IMG/VR virus record: IMGVR_UViG_3300048061_000326 | Coordinates: 1-23,475 of that record | DNA from: a virus | Length of the DNA: 23,475 nt | Reading direction: 5' to 3' (one strand) | Shown: in pieces, positions 2,684 through 22,848 of the stretch | Layout of the letters: each line of letters starts with the position of its first letter | Numbering within the stretch: the stretch's first letter is position 1 | Translations under genes and position numbers: made by a program | The notes under the pieces: generated by a model | The model's database searches: none | What the model saw: the letters and a program-made list of their open reading frames with translations, nothing else | Told to the model about the DNA's origin: nothing

Positions 2684-2759
<76 letters not shown>

Positions 2760-2763
2760 GATT

Positions 2764-2837
2764 TGGAGCGGGTAAGGAGAATCGAACTCCTGTCTTCAGA
2801 TTGGAAATCTGTAATAATACCATTATACGATACCCGC
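2764..2837 (-). tRNA. tRNA-Gly(TCC)
   Basis: Acceptor GCGGGTA/TACCCGC, anticodon loop TTTCCAA with TCC at 2803-2805, T-arm AGGAG-TTCGATT-CTCCT, and an encoded TCCA 3' end. The D-arm is weak (GTAT/ATTA-like), as is usual for bacterial tRNA-Gly. It reads GGA/GGG. Confidence 0.95.
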
Positions 2838-2841
2838 TTCT

Positions 2842-2919
2842 TGGTGGGCCCTGTTGGATTTGAACCAACGATCGATCCGTTATGAGCGGATGGCTTTAAC
2901 CAGACTAAGCTAAAGGCCC
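2842..2919 (-). tRNA. tRNA-Ile2(CAT), probably lysidine-type (or Met)
   Basis: Acceptor GGGCCTT/AGGGCCC, anticodon stem ATCCG/CGGAT, loop CTCATAA with CAT at 2882-2884, T-arm GTTGG-TTCAAAT-CCAAC, encoded CCA. The T-arm and acceptor look closer to E. coli tRNA-Ile2 than to elongator tRNA-Met, so an AUA-reading tRNA after TilS modification is preferred. The elongator Met reading cannot be excluded without a model search. Confidence 0.9.
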
Positions 2920-2922
2920 AAT

Positions 2923-3012
2923 TGGCGGACAGTCAGGGATTCGAACCCTGGGAAGGCGTTAACCTTCGTCGGTTTAGTAGACCGGTGCTTTAAACCTCTC
3001 AGCCAACTGTCC
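2923..3012 (-). tRNA. tRNA-Ser(ACT), unusual A34
   Basis: A class II tRNA of 90 nt: acceptor GGACAGT/ACTGTCC, long variable arm GAAGG-TTAACG-CCTTC, T-loop TTCGAAT, discriminator G and encoded CCA. The anticodon loop is CTACTAA, giving anticodon ACT (2976-2978). Bacterial AGY-reading tRNA-Ser normally has GCT. The outermost anticodon-stem pair is C-A. The rest of the molecule is intact, so it is probably functional, reading AGU or, if A34 becomes inosine, AGU and AGC. Confidence 0.88.
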
Positions 3013-3018
3013 AATTAT

Positions 3019-3095
3019 TGGCCCGCTCTACAGGATTCGAACCTGTGACCTACTGCTTAGAAGGCAGTTGCTCTATCCAGCTGAGCTAAGAGCGG
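3019..3095 (-). tRNA. tRNA-Arg(TCT)
   Basis: Acceptor CCGCTCT/AGAGCGG, D-arm GCTC/GAGC, anticodon stem ACTGC/GCAGT, loop CTTCTAA with TCT at 3059-3061, T-arm ACAGG-TTCGAAT-CCTGT, discriminator G and encoded CCA. It reads AGA/AGG. It is the first tRNA of the five-gene array in transcription order. Confidence 0.95.
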
Positions 3096-22016: not shown

Positions 22017-22181
22017 CTATCCAAAAAACCATATTAACAATGCACCAACAACTATCCAAGGTGCATACTTCCATCCAATTTTTATTGCGCCAAATACTAC
22101 TGCTAGAAACACACCAACAGTGACGCCACCAATAATGAGAGGTTTTAAAACTTCCCATGCAAGGTCAAAATCTCCGCCCAT
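22017..22181 (-). CDS. two-helix membrane protein, 54 aa
   Basis: Begins MGGDFDLAWEVLKP, then a membrane helix (about 14-32, with GG and AVVFGAI), a short basic loop (KIGWKYAP) and a second helix (39-53). The ATG overlaps the TAA of the 56-residue gene (TAATG), so it is translated by coupling. Small size and topology suit an inner-membrane protein of unknown role; holin function is possible but unsupported. Confidence 0.7.
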   Translation of the reverse strand: MGGDFDLAWEVLKPLIIGGVTVGVFLAVVFGAIKIGWKYAPWIVVGALLIWFFG

Positions 22182-22351
22182 TATGCAGAGACCTTAACTA
22201 TACCAAGTTTAACATCATCGAATACTTTTTGCAAGGCTTGCATTATCCATTCTTGCTTATTTTTTTCAGCTTCGACATAGGCATTTTTTACACCTTCAAA
22301 TTCAGCTTTTGAAATTGATTTTACTTCAACTGGTAGATAAGTGTATGCCAT
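22181..22351 (-). CDS. hypothetical helical protein, 56 aa
   Basis: A short basic, helical protein (MAYTYLPVEVKSISKAEFEG, then a Lys/Glu-rich helix and KVFDDVKLGIVKVSA). The ATG has AAGGAG 7 nt upstream, and it is the first gene after the gene-free structured stretch 22368-22550. No family recognised. Confidence 0.7.
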   Translation of the reverse strand: MAYTYLPVEVKSISKAEFEGVKNAYVEAEKNKQEWIMQALQKVFDDVKLGIVKVSA

Positions 22352-22367
22352 TTTGTTCTCCTTGTTT

Positions 22368-22429
22368 AAAAAAAGTGCCGGGCTTTTAGTGTGGTCGCTT
22401 CACTGTCAGTCTGACTAGTCCGGACTTTT
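22368..22429 (-). terminator. terminator-like stem at the end of the candidate RNA
   Basis: A long-range stem (AAAAGT + CCGG against CCGG + C + ACTTTT, 10 pairs) followed directly by T7. The ~38-nt enclosed part holds a 4-bp hairpin and an AGTG/CACT stem, so the structure is larger than a standard terminator. Confidence 0.5.
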
Positions 22430-22550
22430 AGCTAGCCAGCCCCTTAACTCCTTGCTTCACCATAACTTTCAATTCTTAAGGGAGAACCTACTCGTGCTTT
22501 TTGCGGTGTTACGTTATGCTAATCCATCTTCTCCGACTCCTCTTGGTTGA
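22368..22550 (-). ncRNA. candidate structured RNA in a gene-free stretch
   Basis: About 200 nt (22352-22554) has no convincing gene. Read on the minus strand: CATAAC (22513-22518) pairs with GTTATG (22461-22466), while CCCTTAA (22476-22482) pairs with TTAAGGG (22441-22447). These interleave (a-b-a'-b'), so a pseudoknot is possible. The 3' part has an AAAAGT-CCGG arm (22420-22429) and a CCGG-C-ACTTTT arm with one bulged C, ending in seven T: a terminator-like end enclosing GTCA-GAC-TGAC. Inferred from complementarity only; no known RNA family is recognised. Confidence 0.45.
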
Positions 22551-22554
22551 GGGT

Positions 22555-22788
22555 TTAAACAAATAAGGGTTTCATTTTTGAGAACACTTTGTTAAAAGCA
22601 TTCACTTCATATTCAAAATGCTCAAAGAAAACATCATCATCTTCAGCATCGGACTTACAATGTTCTTCCCAAGCACGATTCATTGCTTCCATACCTTCAA
22701 GCATGTCACCGTTACCAAAGTTTTTAATTGTACGACATGCATCATCAAAGGTCACATTCATCTCATAAAAGCTAGGGATTCTAAACAT
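22555..22788 (-). CDS. acidic hypothetical protein, 77 aa
   Basis: An acidic helical protein (MFRIPSFYEMNVTFDDACRT, then a cluster EDDDVFFEHFEYEVN near residue 50-63). The charge and small size fit an early phage protein acting on a host target. AAGGAG lies 8 nt before the ATG and an early promoter (22820-22848) just upstream. No family recognised. Confidence 0.68.
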   Translation of the reverse strand: MFRIPSFYEMNVTFDDACRTIKNFGNGDMLEGMEAMNRAWEEHCKSDAEDDDVFFEHFEYEVNAFNKVFSKMKPLFV

Positions 22789-22819: not shown

Positions 22820-22848
22820 ACTATAGCACCAAGATGTCATACTGTCAA
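22820..22848 (-). promoter_or_regulatory. early promoter, conserved-spacer class
   Basis: TTGACA (22843-22848), spacer GTATGACATCTTGGTGC (17 nt), TATAGT (22820-22825), preceded by AAAAAAGG. The spacer matches that at 2035-2063 at 16 of 17 positions. Confidence 0.85.

Follow-up and report, generated by a model that had tools for sequence, protein, structure and literature searches.

A structured RNA, which the sequences of its diverged homologues make near certain to be real, is encoded on the minus strand of an intergenic gap in an uncultured phage, and its core is a double pseudoknot preceded by a mini-ORF of only a few codons. We suggest tentatively, and with somewhat less than even confidence, that it represents a new class of phage RNAs in which a start-stop site would load a ribosome flush against the double pseudoknot and the RNA would act on that ribosome. 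Its members would be virus-made RNAs that dock ribosomes in bacteria, and the class would be common among uncultured marine phages, both T4-like and of other types.

The window, that is the whole stretch of 23,475 nucleotides that was analysed, is a 23.5-kb fragment of an uncultured phage with T4-type genes. The nearest isolate relatives of its terminase are the PA5oct-like giant Pseudomonas phages (56%), and five tRNA genes are clustered on the minus strand at 2687-3095. The large gap of about 200 nt noticed previously measures 203 nt (22352-22554) and separates a 77-aa gene from a 56-aa gene, both on the minus strand. The features of this region are listed below in the 5' to 3' order of the RNA.

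22820-22848, minus strand: sigma-70 promoter TTGACA-17-TATAGT with extended -10, matching the consensus at 11 of 12 positions and preceding the 77-aa gene
22555-22788, minus strand: 77-aa gene preceding the RNA, unmatched in PHROG
22368-22542, minus strand: whole structured RNA element, 5' end uncertain; covariance-model core at 22435-22535
22531-22542, minus strand: Shine-Dalgarno region GAGGAGTCGGAG, from sequence
22519-22527, minus strand: start-stop mini-ORF ATG GAT TAG (Met-Asp-stop), from sequence and start-stop counts
22504-22508, minus strand: helix Pa, 5' strand CACCG, covarying
22496-22497, minus strand: helix Pb, 5' strand GC (pseudoknot); members show GC/GC, GU/AC and CC/GG
22484-22493, minus strand: near-invariant GAGUAGGUUC with invariant columns, comprising the AGUA of a possible loop-E (sarcin-ricin-like) motif and the Pg 5' strand
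22476-22483, minus strand: helix Pc, 5' strand TCCCTTAA, in the Pg loop, covarying
22467-22475, minus strand: near-invariant columns GAAUUGAAA, comprising the Pg 3' strand and the GAA side of the possible loop-E motif
22458-22462, minus strand: helix Pa, 3' strand TGGTG, covarying
22454-22455, minus strand: helix Pb, 3' strand GC, from the pairing alignment
22440-22447, minus strand: helix Pc, 3' strand TTAAGGGG, covarying
22411-22439, minus strand: hairpin Pd (CTGGCTAG / CTAGTCAG) with loop CUAAAAGUCCGGA; relatives carry unrelated yet complementary arms
22391-22403, minus strand: small hairpin Pf GTGAAGCGACCAC
22378-22381, minus strand: Pe 3' strand CCGG, kissing with the Pd loop CCGG at 22420-22423, from partner swapping
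22368-22374, minus strand: U7 run following Pe; about half of the homologues have one
22181-22351, minus strand: 56-aa gene downstream of the RNA, with its own Shine-Dalgarno sequence AAGGAG

Covariation in the double-pseudoknot core

The aligned core structure comprises the helices Pa (5 bp), Pb (2 bp), Pg (5 bp) and Pc (9 bp). Interleaving of Pa, Pb and Pc makes the core a double pseudoknot, to which the Pg hairpin loop contributes one strand of Pc. In an alignment of 21 sequences, from which the window type with its Pc loop one base shorter was omitted, 95.7% of the cells are standard pairs, compared with 32-49% after sliding of the 3' partners (best slide 48.8%). Double-sided changes were detected in 13 of the 21 core pairs and amounted to 71 such cells versus 25 in shuffles, a value reached by none of 500 shuffles, with the caveat that the related sequences are not fully independent. 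In the partner-swap tests, in which the window type was included as L037, swapped partners beat the own ones in 0 of 2000 trials for Pa and for Pc and in 5 of 2000 for Pb. The pair CACCG/TGGTG of Pa, for instance, is replaced in relatives by AGCCA/TGGCT, AUCCCA/UGGGAU, CGUCA/UGACG and others, and Pg shows one change from C-G to U-A, in L084. The invariant AGUA and GAA flanking Pg possibly form a loop-E (sarcin-ricin) motif, which they resemble in sequence; a loop-E-like element is also present in the glnA and Downstream-peptide RNAs. Folding of the single sequence by minimum free energy gave no signal on either strand (z 0.2 and 0.7), as is to be expected for pseudoknots.

An earlier note on this DNA, made from the letters alone, had proposed a new structured RNA with a pseudoknot in this gap, to be examined for covariation in homologous regions. 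The proposal is borne out by the covariation of Pa, Pb and Pc among the 21 diverged sequences, by a core without a match in Rfam and by the lack of a conserved protein frame. With respect to the two interleaving helices that it had named, CCCTTAA/TTAAGGG occurs in the window (22476-22482 paired to about 22441-22447), forms part of the pseudoknot and covaries strongly among homologues, whereas CATAAC/GTTATG exists in the window but keeps only two to five of its six pairs in diverged relatives. The true interleaving partner of CCCTTAA/TTAAGGG is the adjacent CACCG/TGGTG of Pa, so that CATAAC/GTTATG has to be replaced by the neighbouring CACC/GGTG. An intact protein frame conserved across the homologues had been named as the finding that would speak against an RNA; instead, stops interrupt each of the three frames of the RNA strand in nearly all members. 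The ordinary folding energy of the single sequence would suit mere chance complementarity or an overlooked protein gene, but the covariation together with these stops contradicts both, and we regard either explanation as practically untenable.

The 3' domain and a kissing loop

The core is followed by a second domain in which the pairing of hairpin Pd is kept with wholly different sequences, including CTGGCTAG, ACACACTAG, CACCCCAAA, CTCCTGGA and others. In the small hairpin Pf, the pairs GUG/CAC, GGG/CCC and GAG/CUC were recognized by eye in relatives. The loop of Pd and the 3' end of the RNA pair as CCGG/CCGG, CCUG/CAGG, CCAG/CUGG, CUAG/CUAG, CUGG/CCAG, UUCCCC/GGGGAA or UUCUGG/CCAGAA. Partner swapping for this helix Pe yielded 0 of 10000, a count that is less formal because the arms were picked by hand. 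The variants L030, L033, L038, L046, L050, L092, L097 and L098 contain a different 3' part.

A 10-pair stem ending in T7 had been regarded as the RNA's own terminator. The T7 run is indeed located at 22368-22374, but the stem is unsupported and shows no covariation: its 5' arm varies (GUCGG, GACGG, GCCGG, GCGGG) opposite a constant 3' arm CCCGGC, which is constant because it pairs with the hairpin loop UCCGG. A GC-rich hairpin directly before the U run, as in an intrinsic terminator, is absent in the window, and the U run is optional among the homologues, so that the idea of an own terminator is unsupported.

A start-stop mini-ORF at a near-fixed distance from the pseudoknot

An AUG followed in frame by zero to three codons and a stop codon was identified upstream of the pseudoknot in 17 of 19 non-redundant copies, compared with 3.3 expected from dinucleotide shuffles, and the combination with a Shine-Dalgarno match in 14 of 19 (0.64 expected). 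A stop within four codons of the chosen AUG occurs in 16 of 17 cases in frame 0, in one of 17 in frame +1 and in nine of 17 in frame +2. The start-stop forms are ATGTAG, ATGTGA, ATGGATTAG (window), ATGACCTGA, ATGATGTGA, ATGGTATGA, ATGTGTTTATAG, ATGACGAATTAG and ATGATTTGGAACTGA, and the specified peptide is variable (M, MV, MM, MT, MD, MF, MCL, MTN, MIWN). All three stop codons UGA, UAG and UAA occur, and no codon is located between AUG and stop in eight of 20 copies. Given that peptide and stop codon both lack conservation, what is preserved seems to be initiation with termination directly after it. Exceptions are L098, without an AUG, and L092, with an AUG that lacks a Shine-Dalgarno sequence at normal spacing. 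The earlier note mentions neither this mini-ORF nor the kissing loop nor the weak relation of the 3' domain to GP20-b.

Relative to GAGUAGG, 16 of 20 copies have the first base of the stop codon at -30 to -28, even though the distance from AUG to stop ranges from 6 to 15 nt. Pa starts about 15 nt before GAGUAGG, leaving about 11 spacer nucleotides between stop and Pa; this distance is shorter in L033, L050, L064 and L095. As a ribosome extends at its front about 12-16 nt beyond the A or P site, a spacer of this length would bring a terminating ribosome just into contact with Pa. Most simply, these sequences suggest that a ribosome is meant to bind the start-stop site without running into the fold, and docking of a ribosome at this site appears likely. 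Stop-codon readthrough of the gammaretroviral gag-pol type likewise involves a pseudoknot only a few nucleotides downstream of the stop, but the phage RNA differs in having no long or conserved frame after the stop. Readthrough of the mini-ORF stop was rejected, as members differ in the frame that the conserved motif has with respect to the AUG. To our knowledge, no bacterial stand-alone RNA has previously been described in which a minimal ORF precedes a pseudoknot at a fixed distance.

With regard to function, we consider it about evenly balanced whether the element is a non-coding phage RNA acting in trans, on which a ribosome docks at a start-stop site next to the double pseudoknot. An RNA of about 175-190 nt would be made as a separate sigma-70 (host-type) unit in many phages and as an operon member in the window. 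The Shine-Dalgarno sequence and the AUG near its 5' end would recruit a host ribosome that stops after zero to three further codons with its leading edge against the first pseudoknot helix, so that the RNA would stay folded with the ribosome at its 5' end. The second domain would complete the fold by the kissing of the Pd loop with the 3' end, with Pf in between. The ribosome-bound RNA may then be the working form, acting in trans, for instance on host ribosomes, which it would hold or modulate in the early phase of infection. We infer real initiation, the ribosome-bound working form and the biological purpose including the action in trans from the arrangement described above. The conserved start-stop would provide a concrete and cheaply testable link of a phage non-coding RNA to the ribosome.

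The same anatomy would suit a ribosome that merely serves as a guard, blocking decay that depends on the 5' end, with the stop preventing unfolding and with the function residing in the pseudoknot or the 3' domain, unrelated to translation. This explanation, which we consider rather doubtful, is consistent with the lack of conservation of peptide and codons and with an AUG close to the predicted 5' end of the transcript wherever a copy has its own promoter, but protection alone does not explain the near-fixed distance from stop to pseudoknot. A Shine-Dalgarno sequence and AUG in a fixed structural setting might also mimic an mRNA and titrate a protein that binds initiation sites, such as a RegA-like repressor or a nuclease that cuts Shine-Dalgarno sequences. 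A decoy of this kind, a role also named in the earlier note, is conceivable but improbable, since it has no need of the conserved in-frame stop and since strength and sequence of the Shine-Dalgarno region vary.

A further mini-ORF encoded by a phage is the bar minigene of lambda, AUG-AUA-UAA, which acts through tRNA depletion by peptidyl-tRNA drop-off (PMC8012679). The phage RNAs described here share with it the form AUG-NNN-stop, and the length of AUG, one codon and stop would fit a toxic minigene that depletes one tRNA, but their second codon varies or is absent, their stops vary, and a minigene would not need the structure. AUG-AUA-UAA was found in none of 20 copies, and we know of no structured RNA attached to lambda bar; a toxic minigene is accordingly very improbable.

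Distribution among uncultured phages

Homologues of the RNA were detected in about 45 IMG/VR contigs by a DNA pattern built on the conserved motif GAGTAGGTTC..GAATTGAAA and by two looser patterns. The pattern matches L036, L043, L044, L058 and L085-L090, which in the sequences inspected resemble protein genes, were removed. Members searched with the core covariance model, including the sequences from which it was built, scored 54-104 bits, with 83.9 bits for the window copy, and exactly one copy per contig was present in the 31 records that were scanned whole. Among contigs with relatives of the 77-aa and 56-aa genes, the element is identical or nearly so in L001-L005 and L015, moderately diverged in L008-L010 and more diverged in L016. 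In the close window relatives L006, L007, L013 and L014 a protein gene replaces the RNA after the 77-aa gene, which characterizes the RNA as an optional module; L011 starts in the same way before its sequence ends.

The gene neighbourhoods of the RNA vary among the carriers. T4-type major capsid genes were found in L035, L039 and L050, whereas other carriers have different terminases. The copies of L060 and L101 are flanked by genes unlike those of the window type and have no clear upstream promoter, and the L060 record contains a terminase unlike the T4 type. In view of this terminase and of the foreign neighbours in both records, the element seems to have crossed phage types.

The nearest isolates of the L039 and L050 capsids are Methylophilales phage Melnitz and the Pelagibacter phages Mosig and HTVC008M (72-77% identity), in all three of which the covariance search found the RNA to be absent, so that the hosts of the carriers are a guess only. 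The nearest cultured relatives of these two carriers infect Pelagibacter and the methylotroph clade OM43, and a well-supported structured RNA thereby joins the inventory of phages whose relatives infect abundant bacteria of the ocean. No match to family members was found by BLASTN among 50,697 isolate phages, and a 741-base query including the flanking genes gave scattered weak matches only. Seven isolates (the pelagiphages HTVC008M and Mosig, Melnitz, S-SSM7, PA5oct, Atu_ph07 and AG-345-F15) were searched with the covariance model; the resulting 17-bit matches lack the motif and were judged to be chance. A scan of genome contigs yielded one real match, L075, whose length (19,724 bases) identifies it with the viral contig L064 and which is hence probably a mis-binned phage; the remaining matches, dissimilar in gap lengths and sources, were taken for chance.

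Comparison with known structured RNAs

A search with the covariance models of 4227 Rfam families revealed no match at the element at gathering score; in permissive scans the window gap gave chance-level matches only and the core none. The earlier view that the RNA is neither a tmRNA nor the glnA/Downstream-peptide riboswitch agrees with these data: no tRNA-like domain was found at the element by ARAGORN or Rfam in the window and 17 other loci, and no Rfam riboswitch model of this type matched. GOLLD, glnA, Downstream-peptide, wcaG and manA are likewise structured RNAs of marine phages or bacteria and gave no covariance match here.

A possible relative of the 3' domain is GP20-b (Rfam RF03003), a 62-nt model of the type Cis-reg. 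In a permissive scan it matched L060 with 31.7 bits (E 1.9e-5) over the domain from Pd and Pf to the 3' end, and in a scan of 20 members its full model was aligned by the 3' domains of L060 (31.7 bits, E 2.4e-4) and L084 (31.3 bits, E 3.2e-4). Hairpin Pd, hairpin Pf (GUGA.GC.ACCAC) and the subsequent UAAAAAGC are common to GP20-b and these two loci; the match to L101 is weak (20.3 bits), and 17 of the 20 members were unmatched. None of the 20 members reached the gathering score of 36.2, the best being 31.7 bits, and the window gave no match. The model contains neither the mini-ORF nor the double-pseudoknot core of the new RNA. In a search for genuine GP20-b members none of 34 records scored above the cut-off, and BLAST gave nothing credible in phages. 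Judging from the aligned loci, the 3' domain is probably distantly homologous to GP20-b, and GP20-b may be explained as the 3' domain of a larger RNA. GP20-b reportedly originates from a 2017 paper of 224 candidate RNAs. No description of the new RNA was found in the literature searched, outside of which that paper lay.

Transcription units and the question of action in cis

Sigma-70 consensus promoters, defined by a spacing of 16-17 nt (nearly always 17) and at least nine of 12 consensus matches, were found upstream of 14 of 22 examined copies, compared with 5.6 expected, and their -10 element ends about 55-80 nt upstream of GAGUAGG. A dedicated promoter is lacking for the copy in the window; the nearest one is located at 22820-22848 before the 77-aa gene, which places the window RNA inside an operon, and this promoter is likely to drive the unit that holds the RNA.

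The position between co-directional genes, followed by U7 and a Shine-Dalgarno sequence, would be compatible with a cis element of polycistronic early transcripts, either an attenuator or a shunt-like device in which a ribosome leaving the mini-ORF would encounter the structure, with an effect on translation or transcription of the next gene. The Cis-reg type of GP20-b likewise favours this explanation and counts against docking in trans. Additionally, a short ORF ends 7-8 nt before a stable stem at the take-off site of the ribosome shunt in RTBV and RTSV (PMC5902531), which resembles the short ORF about 11 nt before a stable structure in the phage RNA. The shunt differs in that it involves eukaryotic scanning and a simple long stem and starts a downstream ORF, whereas the phage RNA is a pseudoknot and often its own transcription unit; the plant pararetrovirus shunt is thus at most an analogy of parts. 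Regulation in cis is moreover difficult to reconcile with downstream genes that differ widely and have their own Shine-Dalgarno sequences, with the lack of a terminator hairpin and with a second sigma-70-like promoter between the RNA and the next gene in L027, L031, L039 and L054; in some phages hundreds of non-coding bases follow the RNA. These observations also weaken the previous suggestion of a cis-acting leader for the 56-, 54- and 90-residue genes, as the RNA precedes many unrelated genes. We consider a cis element unlikely, and a trans-acting RNA that docks a ribosome remains our preferred reading.

Further RNA-like modules near the element

A second unclassified RNA-like module of about 100 nt, GTCGA-NN-GAGTATAAAC ... 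AACGAC ... CAGG, was observed directly 3' of the element in L052, L100 and L103 and additionally in L126-L166. Its pattern occurs in 44 viral contigs, several times beside tRNA genes, and two loci tested against Rfam gave no match. By eye, its arms seem to covary (AGTG/CACT, ACG/CGT, GGG/CCC; CCTG/CAGG, GCTTA/TAAGC). Long, apparently non-coding tracts were also noticed 3' of the element in L028, L030, L033, L038, L046, L050, L061, L062, L066 and L092. They have motifs in common, such as TTAAGGTTGGT...GTAAAGTTCC (L033, L066) and TTTTGGGTT...TCCCCCACTGAC (L038, L061) as well as the late-promoter-like AATCTATAAATGCAATA, and probably represent further RNA genes.
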